Source: Oscillospiraceae bacterium (lineage in GTDB: Bacteria > Bacillota > Clostridia > Oscillospirales > Ruminococcaceae). From it: DNA of 64,000 nt. The notes under the pieces are model-generated. The model made no database searches and was not told where the DNA came from. It was given only the letters and a program-made list of their open reading frames with translations. Each line of letters begins with the position of its first letter. The first letter of the stretch is position 1. Both the position numbers and the translations under genes were made by a program. Positions 37,477 through 45,787 of the stretch are shown here, in pieces. Where the stretch lies: positions 124,001 to 188,000 of the forward strand of contig JAKSPJ010000001.1 of NCBI GenBank assembly GCA_024404915.1, written 5' to 3'.

Positions 37477-38739
37477 ATGAGAAAAGCAATCACAAAACTG
37501 ACCGCCGTGTTCAGCAGTCTGGTACTGCTGGCCACACCAATCCGATTTCCAAAGGTGCATGCTGCGGATATCGCACATGACCCAGGGCGAAATGTGCAGA
37601 CGGAAGGCGTAGGCAATCCGTTCAATTTCGGAGAACGCAACACGCCGGAAAATGCATCCACAGCAGAAATCAGAGCAATCAATCACAAGATGACAGTACA
37701 GGAGGTCAAATATGCGCTGTACAAGGAGATTGATGAACACTGGGATCTGATTACTGTTCGCTTTGGACAGACAGATCGTGAAAAGGTTTATGCCCTGTTT
37801 CTGGGCATCGGCACACTGGAATCCACACTGGGCGGAAACGGTGACGGCACCGATATTGAAACCGCATTTTCCGAGGGCTTCGGTGTCAGCTCCGCACACG
37901 CCTACGGCACATTGCAGACAGCTGTCACCGCCTTCCAGGATCCCGGTTCAAGCTTTATGCAGGAGGAGGACGTGCCGGAAATGGAATGGTACCGCCTGAA
38001 CGAATCCAATTTCTATGACGGCATCATTTCCAATCACATGGGCATCCGCAAAATCATTCACTTTATCCGGCAGGCCATGGTAGACTATAATCTGACAGGG
38101 TATCAGATTGTCAGAGGTGCCCTGAAGGGACATAATACCGGATGGGCAAATTACACAGGGGAAGACGGATACTATGCAAATTACCCGGATGAAGGTGCAG
38201 CACTGGCACAGTGGTACTACGAAGAGGGCCACCTCTATGACAATGTGTTCACATGGACAAAGGCGGAAGCTGCTGCAAAACAGCGTGCAGGCAACCCCTG
38301 GGAAGACTGGTGGTATGATGTTGAACCCAGCCTGGCGGAGATTACCGCACAGCCGCCAGTGACAACTACCACCACAACAGCCACAACTACAACAACCACT
38401 ACTACAACAACCACTACCACAACAAGCACTACTACTACAACCACTACTACTACAACAGCCACCACTACCACAACAAATACAACAACAACAACCACCACCA
38501 CTACAACAACTGCCACAACCTCCGAGCCAATCGTGGCAGCTGTGAAAGGTGATGTGAACACCGACGGAGGCGTGGACGTGGCAGATGCTGTTTTGCTGGC
38601 ACGCTACCTTTCGGAAGAACCGGATGCTGTCATCAGCGGACAAGGAAAGCGCAATGCAGATTGTGATGATTCCGGCACACTGAACAATGACGATGTCATT
38701 CTGATTCTGAAAGTTGTTGCACGCATCCTGGAATTCTGA
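37477..38739 (+). CDS. Secreted lysozyme-like protein with dockerin
   Basis: 420 residues. A signal peptide (1-29, cut near HAAD) is followed by a domain of about 260 residues with a lysozyme/transglycosylase-like feel (LGIGTLESTLGGNG with candidate Glu115, AYGTLQTAVTAFQ, LKGHNTGWANY). A Thr tract of about 50 residues (about 296-347) links it to a type-I dockerin (about 357-420; GDVNTDGGVDVADAVLLARY and the second NADCDDSGTLNNDDVI calcium loop). It would attach to a cohesin on the cell surface. The catalytic identity is inference: the domain is only superficially like SLT lysozymes, so substrate could be peptidoglycan or another glycan. GAGGGG lies 5 nt before the ATG. Confidence 0.85.
   Translation: MRKAITKLTAVFSSLVLLATPIRFPKVHAADIAHDPGRNVQTEGVGNPFNFGERNTPENASTAEIRAINHKMTVQEVKYALYKEIDEHWDLITVRFGQTDREKVYALFLGIGTLESTLGGNGDGTDIETAFSEGFGVSSAHAYGTLQTAVTAFQDPGSSFMQEEDVPEMEWYRLNESNFYDGIISNHMGIRKIIHFIRQAMVDYNLTGYQIVRGALKGHNTGWANYTGEDGYYANYPDEGAALAQWYYEEGHLYDNVFTWTKAEAAAKQRAGNPWEDWWYDVEPSLAEITAQPPVTTTTTTATTTTTTTTTTTTTTSTTTTTTTTTTATTTTTNTTTTTTTTTTTATTSEPIVAAVKGDVNTDGGVDVADAVLLARYLSEEPDAVISGQGKRNADCDDSGTLNNDDVILILKVVARILEF
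38360..38520 (+). repeat. ACN-codon threonine repeat tract
   Basis: About 160 nt of ACN codons (ACA, ACT, ACC) encoding an almost pure Thr linker with a few Ala, Ser and Asn. The low-complexity DNA, with recurring ACAACAACCAC and CACTACTAC words, could slip and vary in length between strains. Confidence 0.85.
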
Positions 38740-39140: not shown

Positions 39141-39189
39141 AAAAAGAAAGACGGCATTCTCCATACAGTCCGGAGAATGCCGTCTTTCT
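39141..39189 (-). terminator. Terminator of the LRR-peptide-PqqD operon
   Basis: An 18-bp stem (AGAAAGACGGCATTCTCC and complement) around a 9-nt loop; on the minus strand it is followed by TTTTTG. Confidence 0.9.
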
Positions 39190-39206: not shown

Positions 39207-39470
39207 TTAGTCCTCGATGATGCCCTTTGCACGAAATTTGCTGATGATATTTGCCACATCCCGTTCCACGGTTGGGCGGTCTGCGCCCGTGTATTCGCTC
39301 ATGAGCCTGTCCACAATGGCAGCTTCGGTGGTGTCATTTTTCAGACATTCCACGATAACCGCTGCTGTTTCGTTGCTTCTGACAACGCCTTTGAATTCCG
39401 TTTCATATGTGGAAATCGTGTAGTGCTCTCCCTTGGTAGCGTGGGTAAGAAATCCTGCTTTCAGTTTCAT
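39207..39470 (-). CDS. PqqD-like protein (RiPP recognition element)
   Basis: 87 residues, the size of PqqD/RRE domains, which bind leader peptides of ribosomally made, modified peptides. Start MKLKAGFLTHATKGEHYTI, a Lys/Arg-Ser-Asn-Glu-Thr-Ala turn (VVRSNETAAVIVECL) before the first long helix, and a C-terminal winged-helix part (VERDVANIISKFRAKGIIED) fit the family. It is the last of three genes after a leucine-rich-repeat protein and a 44-residue peptide. The longer frame is rejected: ATG 39470 has AAAGGAA at about 8 nt. No radical-SAM or other modifying enzyme is in the window, so a RiPP role is inference from the family and the neighbouring peptide. Confidence 0.82.
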   Translation of the reverse strand: MKLKAGFLTHATKGEHYTISTYETEFKGVVRSNETAAVIVECLKNDTTEAAIVDRLMSEYTGADRPTVERDVANIISKFRAKGIIED

Positions 39471-39510
39471 GTTGGTTTTTCCTTTCCTATATGATTCGCA
39501 TAAATGCATT

Positions 39511-39540
39511 TCGGCGGACAGCATCGCTGCCGTCCGCCGA
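39511..39540. promoter_or_regulatory. Strong hairpin between micropeptide and PqqD genes
   Basis: A perfect GC-rich stem TCGGCGGAC/GTCCGCCGA extended by AGC/GCC-type pairs, 30 nt in total, in the 100-nt gap between two co-directional genes. On the minus strand it has no U-run (AAATGCATTT follows), so it is better read as an attenuating or mRNA-stabilising hairpin than a full terminator. Such hairpins are common between precursor-peptide and processing genes. Confidence 0.65.
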
Positions 39541-39572
39541 GGGATTATTGTGATACCTCATTACCAACCTCT

Positions 39573-39707
39573 TCATTCTTCTTCCACATCACCTTCAGCC
39601 AACCAACCCGTATTATTTCCACTAGACGAATCATTTGTCAAGATATCTTCTGCCTCAAATTCTGAAAATTCCACATCAGGAGTCACATAACCCTTTTTAT
39701 TCTCCAT
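39573..39707 (-). CDS. 44-residue peptide, candidate RiPP-like precursor
   Basis: A small gene between a secreted LRR protein and a PqqD-like protein. Residues 1-18 read MENKKGYVTPDVEFSEFE, followed by AEDILTNDSSS, a Gly/Asn patch, GW, and an acidic end (AEGDVEEE). The pattern Lys-x-Tyr-x-x-Pro-x-x-Glu-x-x-x-Phe-x-x-Glu-Asp-Ile-Leu-Thr resembles short precursor-like proteins seen in Ruminococcaceae; that resemblance is from memory, not a search. There is no signal peptide. GGGGGTGG lies about 8 nt before the ATG, and the start is 18 nt after the LRR stop. There is no Cys in the C-terminal part, so a sactipeptide is unlikely. The acidic, Ser/Thr-containing core could be an ester- or ether-linked product, or the peptide could be unmodified. 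Confidence 0.7.
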   Translation of the reverse strand: MENKKGYVTPDVEFSEFEAEDILTNDSSSGNNTGWLAEGDVEEE

Positions 39708-39725
39708 AATAATCCACCCCCGGTA

Positions 39726-41648
39726 TTAATTGTTTCGGAAATATTCTTTCGCTTTCTGATTATACAGGAAGAAAGCTTTCATTACGTTCTGCAGCGAAGC
39801 ATTAACATCTCTGGAAAGAACTGTATGGCAATACTTCATCGGACTATACTGAATATAACAGCCCTCATTTGCACCGTCATCTCCAAGAGAAATCTCAACC
39901 CTGACAAACTCGTTCAGGTTCTGTGCAGTAATCCCCTTGATAGACAGTTTAACCTGCTGTCCGGATACTGTCGAAGCAAGAACTACTCCCTTGCTGTCCG
40001 TCGAGAATTTCATTTCTTTATCCGTATCATTCTTAAAATAAAGATTCAATTCCGTCTCTGATTCAAGCGTCAAGGTAGAGCCCGTATAAGAAATATCAGC
40101 AGGCATTTTCATCACAGCCTTACCATTCAATACCTCTTTCACCATGTCAGCATCTACCACGCTGATATAATCTTCCCCACTGTAATTCGCATCGCCGCCA
40201 AAGCCCGCATTGGCAGGATTCTCAACGTTATAATTAAAATAAGCCTGAGAATATGCGCCGTAGTTGACCATGGCTTCTACAAGACTATATGTCGCTGCAA
40301 AAGCTTCGTTCTGTTCCGTCTTGTATTTTGTGCTCACAGCATCTGCATAGGTCTTAACAGAATAATCATCCAGCTGATATGTATTTTCACCAACATACAG
40401 CACAGCCTTGATGGCATCGCTCATTTCCTTTGCGGCAACCTTGCACTGGAATACATAGGTATTTGCATTGCACTCCTTCTTATTCGCTTCAGCAAGTGTC
40501 ACCTTCTGCTCTTTTCCATTCGGCAGAGTGAAAAGCATGTACACATCCTCTGCATTCACAACATCATCGCTCAATTCCGTGTAGTAGTTCACACCAATAT
40601 TGCCCTTCAGGCTGAGAGAATGGCCGATGCATTTTACAGCATCCTTATCCTCGTCCTGTACAGGTGAATCATGCTTAATCAGGCGGCCGCAGCAATCGCA
40701 TTTTCCTGATATGCCGTTGTACTGGTGATCTACCATCTGGAGTGTCTCGATTTCCGATTCTCCGCAGCCCTCACGGGTACATTTGCGCTCCTGCTCCCCG
40801 GTTTCTGTGCAGGTGGGCTCTTTTGTTGTTACCCATTCACCCCAAACATGGCCGAGGGCTTCGATGGGTTCCTGTGAAGTAAAAATCTCATCACATATTG
40901 AACATTTCTCGCCTTCAGTAAGGCCTTCCTTTTCACAGGTAGGATCTACGGCATCCAGTTTATCCTTTTCCTCTGGATGCAAATATGAAACTATTATTGT
41001 TCCTTTATTATTTTTTTTCCAGATGTTCTCAGTTTTCTTTATACTACACGGAGCGGTAACGGTAGCGGTAACGCTCACAAGACTTCCGCAGCCGAAAAAA
41101 ACACTGTCTCCAATCGTTTCAATATTGGAACTTAATCTTACATATTTAAGATTTGTACAACCATAAAAAGCGTTCGTCTGAATTTCATTCACGGAATCCG
41201 GAATGGTTATTTCTGTAAGGCCTGTACAATATTCAAACGCATTCGTTCCTATTACTTCAACGCTATTAGAAATAGTAACGGATTTAAAATTGTAAGAACC
41301 AGAATTACTGCATTTGAAAAAACGATTTCCAATTCGAGTTACGCCATCCTCAATTATAACTTTCTTTACGTCCTTGGGCATGTAAGTTCTGATGGGGGAT
41401 ACAGTTTTATCATAGTCCTCTATCGCTCCCGTGCCACTAATTGTCAAAAGACCATTGTTGTCAAGTGTCCACTTCACATTATCGCCTTGAGCACCACAAG
41501 AGCCACTGGCTTTAATGGCTGGCTCGCCCTCCTCCGCACTGGCAGTAATTGTATAGCTGCCGATACATTCAGAAACAGACTGCAGGGGTGCGGCACTGCA
41601 GATCACAGCAAGTGATGCAACCGCCGCAAAGAATTTGTTGAGTTTCAT
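39726..41648 (-). CDS. Secreted BspA-like leucine-rich-repeat protein
   Basis: 640 residues. A signal peptide (1-about 34, ASA) is followed by BspA-type LRR units (about 75-210: VTRIGNRFFKCS, VIGTNAFEYCTGLTEITIPDSV, EIQTNAFYGCTNLKYVRL), a Cys/Trp-rich region of two related repeats (about 240-330: PTCEKEGLTEGEKCSICDE and HVWGEWVTTKEPTCTETGEQ, with CxxC pairs) and a C-terminal domain of about 300 residues typical of Ruminococcus surface proteins (VKCIGHSLSLKGNIGVNYYTEL). No dockerin. LRR proteins of this type often mediate adhesion. AAAGGAGG lies 5 nt before ATG 41648, which is chosen over the longer frame. First gene of the three-gene operon with the peptide and PqqD genes. Confidence 0.86.
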   Translation of the reverse strand: MKLNKFFAAVASLAVICSAAPLQSVSECIGSYTITASAEEGEPAIKASGSCGAQGDNVKWTLDNNGLLTISGTGAIEDYDKTVSPIRTYMPKDVKKVIIEDGVTRIGNRFFKCSNSGSYNFKSVTISNSVEVIGTNAFEYCTGLTEITIPDSVNEIQTNAFYGCTNLKYVRLSSNIETIGDSVFFGCGSLVSVTATVTAPCSIKKTENIWKKNNKGTIIVSYLHPEEKDKLDAVDPTCEKEGLTEGEKCSICDEIFTSQEPIEALGHVWGEWVTTKEPTCTETGEQERKCTREGCGESEIETLQMVDHQYNGISGKCDCCGRLIKHDSPVQDEDKDAVKCIGHSLSLKGNIGVNYYTELSDDVVNAEDVYMLFTLPNGKEQKVTLAEANKKECNANTYVFQCKVAAKEMSDAIKAVLYVGENTYQLDDYSVKTYADAVSTKYKTEQNEAFAATYSLVEAMVNYGAYSQAYFNYNVENPANAGFGGDANYSGEDYISVVDADMVKEVLNGKAVMKMPADISYTGSTLTLESETELNLYFKNDTDKEMKFSTDSKGVVLASTVSGQQVKLSIKGITAQNLNEFVRVEISLGDDGANEGCYIQYSPMKYCHTVLSRDVNASLQNVMKAFFLYNQKAKEYFRNN

Positions 41649-41700
41649 ACACGCCTCCTTTATCATTCAGCCAACAAAACATTTAAAAATTCCTTAAAAC

Positions 41701-41729
41701 ATTATATCATCAATTTGATAAAAAGTCAA
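41701..41729 (-). promoter_or_regulatory. Promoter of the LRR-peptide-PqqD operon
   Basis: Minus strand: TTGACT (41724-41729), 17-nt spacer, TATAAT (41701-41706) with TG extension. Confidence 0.8.
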
Positions 41730-41805: not shown

Positions 41806-43689
41806 TTACGGAGCAAGCTCCTCGGCTGTAATCATGCGTGCAACAAAGCGCAGAATTTTCACAACATCCTGTGAATTCAGTTTGCCGTCTCCTGTTACAT
41901 CTGCATTCAGCTTTCCTTCTGATGAGACTTCCGCCGTTTTATCCTCAGCCACATAACGGCTGAGAAGCACAGCGTCGGCAACATCCACGGTAGTATCGCA
42001 GTTCGTATTGCCCCAGTCTGCTTGCCTGGCAGACACAGAAGTGGTTGTCTTCGGTGCAGCAGTTGTGGTGGCAGCTGTTGTTGCGGTGCTTTCAACAGGC
42101 TTCTTTGTTGTGGTAACAGCCGGCTGATCGGTTGTTGTCGGAATGATATCCACCCCATTGCCTTCGCCGCCCTGGGACTTCTTTCCGCCGTCCAGGTTGG
42201 AGCCCTCTGTAGAAGCGTAGCTCTTATAGAACTCTGTAAGGGAAAGACCTGTGTTATTGACGCCCAGAGGACGCTGGTGATCCAGACCAATGTACTTTCC
42301 GCTGACAGAAGTCTGCCACAGCGCTTCCTCAAACAGTGCATACTTGTTTTCTTCCCACACTGCAGAGGTCTTCTGTGCTTCTCTGTCCATGTTGAAACCG
42401 GACCACAGTCCGCCTGTATCACCGGAGTTGGTATTCAGGCACCAGAATGTGTGATTGATATGATGGTTAATCATGTAGTCACGGAGCAGTGTCATCCATT
42501 TCTGGTTGTCACCGGCATCCATATGGCCGCCCCATTCGCCAATCAGTTCCGGCGCAATGTCCTCGGCATTGATATATGCCCATGTGTCATACCAGTAATC
42601 ATCCAGCAGTGTCTGCTCTGTAAAGTCCTTTGCAAACCATGTCTGGTCGTAAACAGAAGGGCCGTAGTCATGCGGGGAATATACAATCTGTGATGTGCCC
42701 TGCTTCGGAACAATCGGATATTCACGGGCACCACGGAAGTTTCCGCCCCACCATGCACCGATATACGGAGAATTATCTCTTCTGTCAGGCATGCCCCAGT
42801 AGTCGCCTGCCATTGCACCGCTCATGGACTGCTCAACGCCCTCAATAAAAATCAGTGCATGGGGGTTCACATCCAGAATGGCCTCTGCACACTTTGTTGC
42901 AGCATATGCCCAGTTATTTTCATCGGTGGAGCCATCCCATTTTGCAGCTTCGTCACCCTCCTGGCCCTTACCATGGGGCTCGTTCTTCAGGTCAAAACCA
43001 ATCAGTGTATCGTCATTCTTGTATTTATCAGCCATCCATGCCAAAGATTCAATCCAAGACTCTGTGGTAACACCGGCCTTTCCATACCACAGATTGTAGT
43101 TGTGACCACTGTTATCCGTATGGGGGCTATGGATATCAATAAATGCCTTAATGCCGTACTTTTTGCACTTGCCCAGAATGACATCAAAGATTTCTTCGGA
43201 ATTCTTCACCGTCTTTCCGTCTTCCTTGACAAAATCGATATTGATTTTTCCATAGGTGCCTGCCTTGATAATGCCGCCGTTGCCGTCATCCTGATCCACC
43301 GGAGGATTATAGGATGCCTGGACGCTTCCCACAGGGTTCGGCTTGCCATTCATCCAGGAGAGAATCAGTTCTGTGGAAATAGGGAAACGAATAACATTAA
43401 TGCCGCGGTCTGCAACCTCACTGAGCAGATCGTCGCAGTCCGCAGACCACAGATAATGAGGCAGTGCCTCATTACAGTTCAGGCCAAACCAGTTTGCGCC
43501 GGTCAGCCAGACTTCATTGCCGTCCTTGTCATAAAGGCGGCTTCCCTCTGCATGAAGCCAGTCGTCATTGCCGTCATCCAAAGCATAGGATGTGATGGTG
43601 TCACCGCCGATACTGCCAGCATAGCCATTCGTACCGGCAATGGTGATGAGTGCTGCCAACCCGATGGACAGCAGGTGTCTGTGTTTCAT
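41806..43689 (-). CDS. GH5 endoglucanase with dockerin (copy A)
   Basis: 627 residues: signal peptide (about 1-24), a catalytic GH5 domain (about 42-490; RGINVIRFPIS, acid/base Glu237 in FDLKNEPHG, nucleophile Glu385 in LIGEWGGH), a Ser/Thr/Ala linker (about 510-560) and a type-I dockerin (about 563-625; NTNCDTTVDVADAVLLSRY and NADVTGDGKLNSQDVVKILR). It would cleave beta-1,4-glucan such as cellulose or beta-glucan from the cellulosome. GAGGGG lies 8 nt before the ATG. It is a tandem paralogue of the next gene upstream, with which it shares long identical blocks, such as DYGPSVYDQ and FTEQTLLDDYWYDTW. Confidence 0.94.
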   Translation of the reverse strand: MKHRHLLSIGLAALITIAGTNGYAGSIGGDTITSYALDDGNDDWLHAEGSRLYDKDGNEVWLTGANWFGLNCNEALPHYLWSADCDDLLSEVADRGINVIRFPISTELILSWMNGKPNPVGSVQASYNPPVDQDDGNGGIIKAGTYGKINIDFVKEDGKTVKNSEEIFDVILGKCKKYGIKAFIDIHSPHTDNSGHNYNLWYGKAGVTTESWIESLAWMADKYKNDDTLIGFDLKNEPHGKGQEGDEAAKWDGSTDENNWAYAATKCAEAILDVNPHALIFIEGVEQSMSGAMAGDYWGMPDRRDNSPYIGAWWGGNFRGAREYPIVPKQGTSQIVYSPHDYGPSVYDQTWFAKDFTEQTLLDDYWYDTWAYINAEDIAPELIGEWGGHMDAGDNQKWMTLLRDYMINHHINHTFWCLNTNSGDTGGLWSGFNMDREAQKTSAVWEENKYALFEEALWQTSVSGKYIGLDHQRPLGVNNTGLSLTEFYKSYASTEGSNLDGGKKSQGGEGNGVDIIPTTTDQPAVTTTKKPVESTATTAATTTAAPKTTTSVSARQADWGNTNCDTTVDVADAVLLSRYVAEDKTAEVSSEGKLNADVTGDGKLNSQDVVKILRFVARMITAEELAP

Positions 43690-43852: not shown

Positions 43853-45670
43853 TTACAGTTTTTCAATCAGTCGTGCAACGAACTTCAGAATCTGAATTGT
43901 ATCGCCGTTTCCGACTTTTCCGTCTCTGTCCACTTCTGCATTCATCATACCTGCTTCAGAAATCTTTGCGCCGGCATCTTCTGAAATAAAGCGTGCCAGC
44001 AAAACTGCATCTGAAACATCGACATCGCCGTCGCAGTTCACATCACCGAGTTTTGCTGCGGCAGAAGCTTTCTGTGTTGTAACGGTGGTTGTTGTGGTGG
44101 TTGTCGCCTTTGCAGTAGTTGTTACCGTAGTCTGAGCAGCACCGGGCGTCGTGGTATCCGGTGAAATAGTCGCCTTTTTGCCGCCGTCCAGATTGGAGGA
44201 TGCGCCGGAAGCATAAAACTCTGTCAAAGTCAGACCATTCTTGCCAAGCGGTGTCTGATGATCCAGACCGATATATTTGCCGCTGTCCGTCTGCCACAGG
44301 GACTCCTCAAACAGGGCATACTTATTATCATCCCATTCAGAGAATGTTGCATTCAGCAGACCGCCTGTATCGCCGGAATTCGGATTCAGGCACCAGAATG
44401 TATGGTTGATATGGTGGTTAATCATATAGTCACGAAGCAATGTCATCCATTTCTGGTTTTTGCCGTCATCCATATGACCGCCCCATTCTCCAATCAGAAG
44501 CGGGGCAATATCCTCTTCGTTGATATAGGACCATGTATCATACCAATAGTCATCCAGCAGTGTCTGCTCTGTAAAGTCCTTTGCAAACCATGACTGGTCA
44601 TAAACAGAAGGACCATAGTCGTGAGGTGAGTACACAATCTGACTCGTTCCGCTCTTCGGAGTAACAGGATACTCACGGACACCACGGAGATTTCCGCCCC
44701 ACCATGCGCCATACCAGGCAGCATTTTCAGCAGTTGCATTCCATACATCAGGTGTATCATAGGTATAGCCCTTTTCTGTCATGGGATACTGCTCAACGCC
44801 CTCAATCAGAATCAAGGCGTTGGGATTCACTGCCAGAATGGAATTTGCACACTGCTCAGCGGAATATTTCCAGTTGTTTTCCAGCTCTGTATCATCCCAT
44901 CTGGCAATATCAGACGGGCAGGTACTGCCAGAATAGCCACGCTTGCCATGTGGCTCATTCTTCAGGTCATATGCAAGCAGTGTATCGTCGTTGGCATATT
45001 TCTTTGCCAGCCATGTCAAAGAGTCAATCCAGTCATTCCATGTAACAGGTGTTCCCTGATCTCCCTGCTTTTCCTTGATACATGCCATATCTTCTGCGGT
45101 CTTGCTGGACTCTTCGTAATACCAGAGTTCGTAGTTATGGCCGGAGTTATGGGAAGCAGGGCTGTGAACGTCTACGAAAGCCTTGATGCCGTATTTTTTG
45201 CACTTCTGCATAATCACGTCGAAGATTTCCATACTGTTCATCTCCGTGCCGTCATCGTGGCAGAAATCCGGATTAAAGCTGTAGCCGTCTGTCTTTTTCG
45301 GATTCAGTCCCTCCGCTTTATAGGGATTGCCGTTCATCCAGGAAATCAGCAATTCAGAAGAAATCGGGAAACGAATAATATTGATGCCACGGTCAGCGAC
45401 CTGTGAAAGCAGCACGTCAATATCTGCGCTCCAGAGTCCATGCGGAAAGTTTTCAGTACAGTTCATACCGAACCAGTTTGCGCCGGTCAGCCAGACTTCT
45501 CTGCCATCCTTGTCATAAAGACGGCTTCCCACAGCATGCAGCCAGTCGTCTGACGTATCATCTGCTGCGGAAACAGACATCTGCGCCTGTTCCATGTGCA
45601 TCGGTGCGGTTGTAGCCGCTGCAGCTACAAGTGCTGCCAAAGAAAAAGACAGCAAGGTCTTGTGCTTCAT
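43853..45670 (-). CDS. GH5 endoglucanase with dockerin (copy B)
   Basis: 605 residues: signal peptide (about 1-35, ASA-type end at SVSAADD), GH5 domain (about 40-490; acid/base Glu239 in YDLKNEPHG, nucleophile Glu395 in LIGEWGGH), Thr-rich linker (about 505-535) and type-I dockerin (about 538-600; GDVNCDGDVDVSDAVLLARF, NAEVDRDGKVGNGDTI). Closely related to copy A but with an extra loop of about 25 residues near positions 190-215 (AEDMACIKEKQGDQG) and a different C-terminal region. The longer frame starts upstream; ATG 45670 has GAGGGGG at 8 nt. The two copies are separate transcription units with a terminator between them. Confidence 0.94.
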   Translation of the reverse strand: MKHKTLLSFSLAALVAAAATTAPMHMEQAQMSVSAADDTSDDWLHAVGSRLYDKDGREVWLTGANWFGMNCTENFPHGLWSADIDVLLSQVADRGINIIRFPISSELLISWMNGNPYKAEGLNPKKTDGYSFNPDFCHDDGTEMNSMEIFDVIMQKCKKYGIKAFVDVHSPASHNSGHNYELWYYEESSKTAEDMACIKEKQGDQGTPVTWNDWIDSLTWLAKKYANDDTLLAYDLKNEPHGKRGYSGSTCPSDIARWDDTELENNWKYSAEQCANSILAVNPNALILIEGVEQYPMTEKGYTYDTPDVWNATAENAAWYGAWWGGNLRGVREYPVTPKSGTSQIVYSPHDYGPSVYDQSWFAKDFTEQTLLDDYWYDTWSYINEEDIAPLLIGEWGGHMDDGKNQKWMTLLRDYMINHHINHTFWCLNPNSGDTGGLLNATFSEWDDNKYALFEESLWQTDSGKYIGLDHQTPLGKNGLTLTEFYASGASSNLDGGKKATISPDTTTPGAAQTTVTTTAKATTTTTTTVTTQKASAAAKLGDVNCDGDVDVSDAVLLARFISEDAGAKISEAGMMNAEVDRDGKVGNGDTIQILKFVARLIEKL

Positions 45671-45787
45671 GATAAATTCCCCCTCAAGAATCATTTACTC
45701 GTGCGGTACACACGAAATATCATTACGGTGCCATCAGAATTCCCTCAAATTCTGAATGCCGTGCGAACCATGATATTATTACCCGTA
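45671..45787. other. Leader region of GH5 copy B
   Basis: A short gap with an inverted repeat TCAGAATT...AATTCTGA (45734-45755). No clear sigma-A promoter is seen, so transcription could also continue from the SseB-like gene upstream. Confidence 0.4.

Follow-up and report, generated by a model that had tools for sequence, protein, structure and literature searches.

A putative LPP-like RiPP variant of Oscillospirales with dispersed precursors paired with secreted surface proteins

The cassette described here appears to belong to a widespread new variant of RiPP systems like those of the linear polyphosphorylated peptides (LPP). In this variant, the precursors are dispersed over the genome, are coupled to surface proteins and are matured by enzymes encoded elsewhere. 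This verdict is drawn from sequence comparison. The whole proposal joins LPP-type maturation of a small peptide to a partnership of this peptide with a C-terminal domain (CTD) of secreted proteins at the cell surface, and a probability of about 0.6 was assigned to it. LPP-type maturation, taken by itself, is quite likely. The window, i.e., the whole stretch of 64,000 nt that was analysed, corresponds to C1:124001-188000 of a 2.33-Mb Ruminococcus-like genome. The pairing of peptide and surface protein recurs dozens of times in related bacteria, and the host is a gut or rumen Ruminococcus.

The cassette, its signals and the RRE protein

Three genes were found on the minus strand in the order of secreted LRR protein, 44-codon peptide and PqqD-like protein, and all three frames are present where the first-pass annotation had placed them. 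The secreted protein is composed of a signal peptide, a BspA-type LRR, a variable middle part and the CTD. The features of the cassette are listed below.

39726-41648, minus strand: secreted surface protein gene, 640 aa from the ATG at 41648
41064-41375, minus strand: BspA-type LRR region (PF13306, 81.9 bits)
39741-40625, minus strand: CTD of about 280 aa, constant partner of the peptide family as judged by profile comparison
39573-39707, minus strand: putative LPP-like RiPP precursor of 44 codons, MENKKGYVTPDVEFSEFEAEDILTNDSSSGNNTGWLAEGDVEEE
39636-39707, minus strand: predicted leader M1-T24, from family conservation and analogy with LppA (PMC13381572)
39678-39689, minus strand: YxxP motif of the leader
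39576-39635, minus strand: predicted core N25-E44, NDSSSGNNTGWLAEGDVEEE
39207-39470, minus strand: discrete RRE (PqqD fold) of 87 codons, PF05402 match
41701-41729, minus strand: promoter-like site TTGACT-17-TATAAT with TG, score 11/12
39145-39189, minus strand: intrinsic terminator, 19-bp hairpin with T-run
39511-39540, minus strand: 13-bp hairpin without T-run between the peptide and RRE genes, z = -3.3

The ATG of the surface protein gene is preceded by AAAGGAGG, and the longest frame starts from 41666. The peptide gene was confirmed to lie 18 nt past the LRR stop, and the start of the PqqD-like gene is preceded by AGGAAAGGA. A single promoter and a terminator had been proposed as the bounds of the cassette. 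The terminator was recovered as a hairpin, and the promoter-like site was located exactly as proposed, but the word single was slightly too strong, as a second site, also scoring 11/12, lies inside the peptide gene at 39612-39641. The 13-bp hairpin may set the expression ratio of peptide to RRE.

Proteins with Thr-rich linkers and dockerin-like C-termini adjoin the cassette at positions 37477-38739, 41806-43689 and 43853-45694 of the window, and two of them are glucanase-like, i.e., GH5-like by eye. The dockerin-like neighbours suggest a cellulosome-forming Ruminococcus.

The 87-aa protein was matched to the PqqD family PF05402 with 49.5 bits, over the cut-off of 23.4, whereas the best NCBIfam model, a lasso PqqD chaperone, stayed below cut-off. 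The AlphaFold model of the protein (mean pLDDT 84.9) was aligned with 5v1v, i.e., the lasso RRE TbiB1 bound to its leader, at TM 0.84, and with 5v1u at TM 0.80-0.83; 6jx3 also matched. The protein is a RiPP recognition element (RRE) with a PqqD-like winged-helix fold, and the RRE-like features that had been noticed in a PqqD-sized protein were thus recovered by both the HMM search and the model. Two more RRE copies were found in the same genome, on contigs C12 and C15. At the end of C15 (L005:11622-12022), the third copy is followed by a signal-peptidase frame that ends after GDSMM near the contig end, and this stop may come from the insertion of a mobile element or from a break in the assembly. 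Zero matches were obtained in a plasmid search with the RRE and in a phage search with the peptide.

A different PqqD-like family of 116-128 aa was also observed (L056:8078-8428, L057:8063-8449 and L104:1493-1852). Its closest NCBIfam model was ScmD, below cut-off, and its genes adjoin a membrane transporter-like gene. The family occurs in genomes with and without LPP-like peptides.

The RRE is closest to lasso B1 proteins, and the peptide has a YxxP leader. Both fit a lasso precursor, for which the RRE (B1) would be encoded here and the cyclase and B2 peptidase elsewhere. However, Gly1 with Asp/Glu at 7-9 is not a rule in the cores, and a cyclase was not seen in the operons. The Transglut_core3 B2 peptidase (PF13471) was over cut-off in 0/30 genus genomes, the genome of the window included, and on this ground the lasso reading was rejected as very improbable.

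The peptide family and its CTD partner

A peptide profile was built from 23 relatives, and by searching with it, 94 members were found in 20/30 genus genomes, with up to 17 peptides per genome and differing tails. Across the order, members were detected in 98/394 sampled genomes and 54/169 genera, so that about a quarter of the sampled Oscillospirales genomes carry LPP-like precursors. The family leader reads YxxPExEIxxFExEDVITxS, with Y, P, F, ED, T and S strongly conserved among 88 aligned genus members. The Y, F, D, T and S are conserved at 97-100%, although the rule used for alignment accounts for part of this at Y and D, and has far less influence on F (98%), T (97%) and S (98%). The leader-like pattern first seen at the N-terminus of a single peptide is borne out by family conservation. 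The tails are variable and acidic, have 6-23 residues, and show a median net charge of about -3.

The peptide of the window reads ...ILT-NDS..., i.e., T-x-x-S, and T-x-S is found in most relatives. By analogy with the LPP peptides, in which the same T-x-x-S spacing occurs (PMC13381572), cleavage is predicted after T24, and S27 (39627-39629) is the predicted phosphorylation site. Serine stands at this place in 98% of the genus relatives.

The peptide frame is short and would be missed by usual gene callers, as could be expected of a chance frame among unrelated neighbours. However, the frame is kept, with its motif, in about 90 genus relatives. Over 43 independent relative pairs, a pN/pS ratio of 0.21 was obtained for the leader and of 0.55 for the tail, frame 0 codon usage was coding-like in 88/88 genus members, and a Shine-Dalgarno-like site was found in 82/87 peptide genes against a background of 11%. 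Because of the pN/pS, codon usage and ribosome-binding sites, the chance of a spurious frame is negligible, and the 44-codon frame is a real gene under purifying selection.

Two observations were made on other precursors. In G007 (L007/L059, contig C112), two LPP-like peptides lie in tandem, with the adjoining secreted protein on the opposite strand; the kinase, RRE and CTD were not found in this genome. Proteins of 114-131 aa starting with MxxMAVPxMxVVRFxExDIIxAS were found at L048:1652-1996, L050:8415-8765 and L055:7303-7698. They are probably a second precursor class with a long core and no Tyr, and their cassettes also contain an acyltransferase (PF01757).

The coupling of the peptide to a surface LRR protein, claimed in the first-pass annotation, held in part. 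The pairing with a surface protein recurs, but LRR is only one of several N-terminal halves, i.e., LRR_5, DUF285/PARCEL, CotH or no known family. LRR was dropped as the conserved partner after an iterated profile search, in which the constant part was the CTD, a domain of about 280 residues, after which mostly no more than a dozen residues remain to the C-terminus. No credible family was found for it in Pfam and NCBIfam. Judged by these searches, the CTD is an undescribed domain family and the constant partner of the peptide.

By coordinates, 81/94 genus peptides are located behind a CTD, a count that is partly circular because the CTD profile was trained on peptide-adjacent proteins. The counts that follow are less affected. 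In 80/96 genus CTD loci, a same-strand peptide gene comes next, mostly no more than 100 nt away. In the genus, the CTD was found in 19/20 peptide genomes and 0/10 others (Fisher p = 4e-7), and copy numbers of CTD and peptide per genome match (rho 0.93). In the order-wide sample, the CTD was found in 38/98 peptide genomes, against 10/296 others (p = 2e-17), so that beyond the genus this CTD occurs in only part of the peptide genomes. A signal-peptide-like start, by a crude rule, was present in 45/47 closed CTD proteins and also in 343/648 other long genes. Peptide and CTD co-vary within genomes significantly and weakly (rho 0.21-0.29); joint duplication can give such values, so the co-variation was not used as proof of contact.

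It could also be considered that the peptide is a free-acting LPP-like RiPP, i.e., an exported diffusible signal or weak antimicrobial, and that the surface protein is a co-expressed neighbour, a receptor or an immunity protein. The maturation gene set agrees with this, as it is that of the LPPs, the function of which is unknown, and the many different tails in one genome resemble those of signals or bacteriocins. A chance neighbour, however, would not be one same CTD in about 80 loci, and the short acidic tails are unlike most antimicrobials. A free-acting peptide was therefore regarded as unlikely.

Maturation enzymes encoded in trans

A recurring gene set was found in the PqqD neighbourhoods of the genus, i.e., an HprK-related protein, an archaeal/SipW-type signal peptidase, an MsbA-like ABC exporter and an NTP_transf_5 protein. 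The HprK-related protein showed weak HprK_rel_B and ScmC matches, and the kinase model of a relative has the HprK/PEPCK fold. The Ser, His and Asp of the peptidase are invariant in 10 aligned members, including that of the window's genome. The NTP transferase was matched by PF14907 in a relative.

Every part was found in the window's genome, scattered over at least four contigs. The HprK-like kinase was located at C3:84860-85588 (371 bits) with a lipoprotein gene beside it, the SipW-like peptidase on C12 adjoining an RRE, and the MsbA-like exporter on C4 (823 bits, where the second-best ABC protein scored 126) next to the nucleotidyltransferase. Within the contigs, C15 excepted, the scattered genes are flanked on both sides by unrelated genes, and so the scatter is not an effect of breaks in the assembly. 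As identified by homology, all enzymes are present in this genome and unlinked to the cassette. Enzymes acting in trans had been assumed from the cassette itself, and this assumption agrees with the genome. Unlinked radical SAM or other maturases had been named as genes to look for. The maturases now expected are an HprK-like kinase and a SipW-like peptidase of the LPP type rather than a radical SAM enzyme, and radical SAM genes accompany only a subset of peptides, mostly with Cys cores.

Co-occurrence was counted in 53 named loci of more than 12 kb around the kinase. The RRE was present in 46/53, the peptidase in 43/53, the exporter in 42/53, the nucleotidyltransferase in 28/53 and a peptide gene in 25/53, and all five maturation genes were together in 24/53. 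In R. flavefaciens ND2009 (L182), a complete operon has the order CTD protein, peptide, lipoprotein, RRE, nucleotidyltransferase, kinase, peptidase and exporter. The operon of SAb67 (L188) is similar, but its gene calls did not show the peptidase and nucleotidyltransferase. In one genome (G025), the kinase was present and the peptide was not found.

Radical SAM/SPASM maturases were encoded beside some peptides (L124:7647-9011, L126:381-1754, L133:7548-9017, L127, L131, L146, L173, L186, L191 and L106), and their closest model was TIGR04463, far below cut-off. Cys-containing cores were found in 11/13 peptides adjoining such a gene, and the gene was nearby for 11/14 peptides with Cys after the ED motif. 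In the three Cys peptides lacking the gene, the Cys is inside the motif and not in the tail, and tails without the gene have no Cys. This match, seen in the predicted cores, supports the peptides as RiPP precursors, and the linked peptides are possibly a hybrid of LPP and radical-SAM RiPP chemistry. In the window, the peptide lacks Cys and a radical SAM gene is absent from the cassette. For this peptide, maturation by a radical SAM enzyme was rejected, with the radical SAM genes of its own genome counted, as genes of the type described above adjoin mostly Cys-bearing relatives.

A regulatory or chaperone role would require no such enzymes. An unmodified peptide, presented by the RRE, would aid folding, secretion or regulation of the CTD protein in the cytoplasm, and the LPP enzymes would serve other substrates. 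The tight translational spacing of CTD and peptide genes (about 15-30 nt) agrees with this, and the operon of the window joins RRE and peptide without enzymes. In addition, the kinase was not found in six peptide-bearing genomes (G007, G018, G019, G022, G028 and G029), several of which are incomplete. Against such a role stand the T-x-S, which hardly varies where cleavage and phosphorylation are predicted, the radical SAM gene that tracks Cys content, and the one operon with kinase, peptidase and exporter. The role was considered improbable.

Proposed working and comparison with known systems

With LPP-type maturation and a CTD partnership as the preferred reading, the RRE would bind the YVTP leader of the peptide, and the HprK-like kinase encoded elsewhere in the genome would phosphorylate S27 of the core, next to the leader. 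The SipW-like serine peptidase would cut after T24, and the MsbA-like exporter would move the acidic core of about 20 residues outside. The nucleotidyltransferase possibly decorates the core further. At the cell surface, the mature peptide would serve as the specific partner of one CTD, that of the protein encoded 18 nt upstream, and would dock, anchor or shield it or signal through it. The sequences show the pairing of the genes, their conservation, their families and the presence of every enzyme, and the steps of this route are inferred from them.

Small lipoproteins with a Thr/Ser-rich linker and the tail (D)GxIELPxIPI adjoin peptide or kinase genes (L097:7415-7864, L020, L026, L038, L043, L147, L182, L185, L188 and L196). 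The lipoprotein beside the kinase of the window's genome has the tail ELPFIPIENIQ, and one peptide (L071) ends in GAIELPIIPVK like the lipoprotein tails. The motif [EDG][LMT]P was found in 24/80 peptide tails, against 5.3 +/- 2.1 after shuffling. This likeness of the tails suggests docking. A surface-display system can be drawn from it tentatively, in which the CTD of a secreted protein would be held at, or licensed by, a phosphorylated RiPP peptide of its own that is encoded directly downstream, the ELP-tail lipoprotein would be the membrane docking point, and one enzyme set per genome would mature all peptides in trans.

The function of LPPs has been unknown since their description in 2026, and the CTD pairing is the first concrete hint of the purpose of such peptides. 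Within the genus, the near one-to-one tie to CTD proteins makes the function directly testable in cultivable rumen species. A new domain family is also defined on surface proteins of gut fibre degraders. RiPP precursors that are matured in trans have a further meaning for annotation, as usual gene callers may miss such genes.

The LPP RiPPs were described in Bacilli by Popov et al. 2026 (PMC13381572), with the genes lppAKBSDN in P. alginolyticus. LppB, the RRE, binds the YxxP leader, Ser3 of the core receives several phosphates from the kinase LppK, and LppS, which is SipW-like (S29, H68 and D93), cuts after a Thr (PMC13381572). The loci are found close to capsule genes, neither the final product nor the function is known, and the main text has no mention of Clostridia, lipoproteins or surface proteins (PMC13381572).

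The system found here shares with LPPs the short precursor, whose leader bears YxxP and whose C-terminus varies, the discrete RRE, the HprK-like kinase, the SipW-like peptidase with Ser-His-Asp, the MsbA-like exporter, the uncharacterised NTP transferase and the lack of a macrolactam cyclase. In both, Thr precedes the cut and Ser follows shortly after, and the window peptide keeps Thr-x-x-Ser. However, the published consensus is YxxPxVLxHQxIxFETxxS, and its correspondence to the family leader is limited to YxxP and the T-(x)x-S end. Counted from Y, the Thr of the predicted cut comes two residues later here. Because of this unlike consensus, the peptides are called LPP-like, and strict membership is not claimed. 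Other differences are the host order, i.e., Oscillospirales and not Bacilli, the use of one enzyme set for many dispersed precursors, the ELP-tail lipoprotein, the radical SAM subtype, and the position of the precursors behind a secreted CTD protein rather than in capsule loci. As for gene clustering, the genes are scattered in the window's genome and form one operon in ND2009.

Paeninodin-like phosphorylated lasso peptides are similar in the RRE, HprK-like kinase, NTP transferase and exporter. They differ in that no B2 peptidase was found here, the motif has Tyr and not Trp, and lasso core features are absent. BspA-type LRR proteins resemble the N-terminal half of the window protein (PF13306), but LRR is not constant in the partners, where DUF285/PARCEL, CotH and unassigned halves occur as well. 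In PEP-CTERM/exosortase-type systems, one enzyme set per genome serves many surface proteins with a common C-terminal module, and the arrangement found here is alike in this respect. Here, however, a whole domain stands in the place of that module, and what is processed has a small gene of its own immediately downstream.
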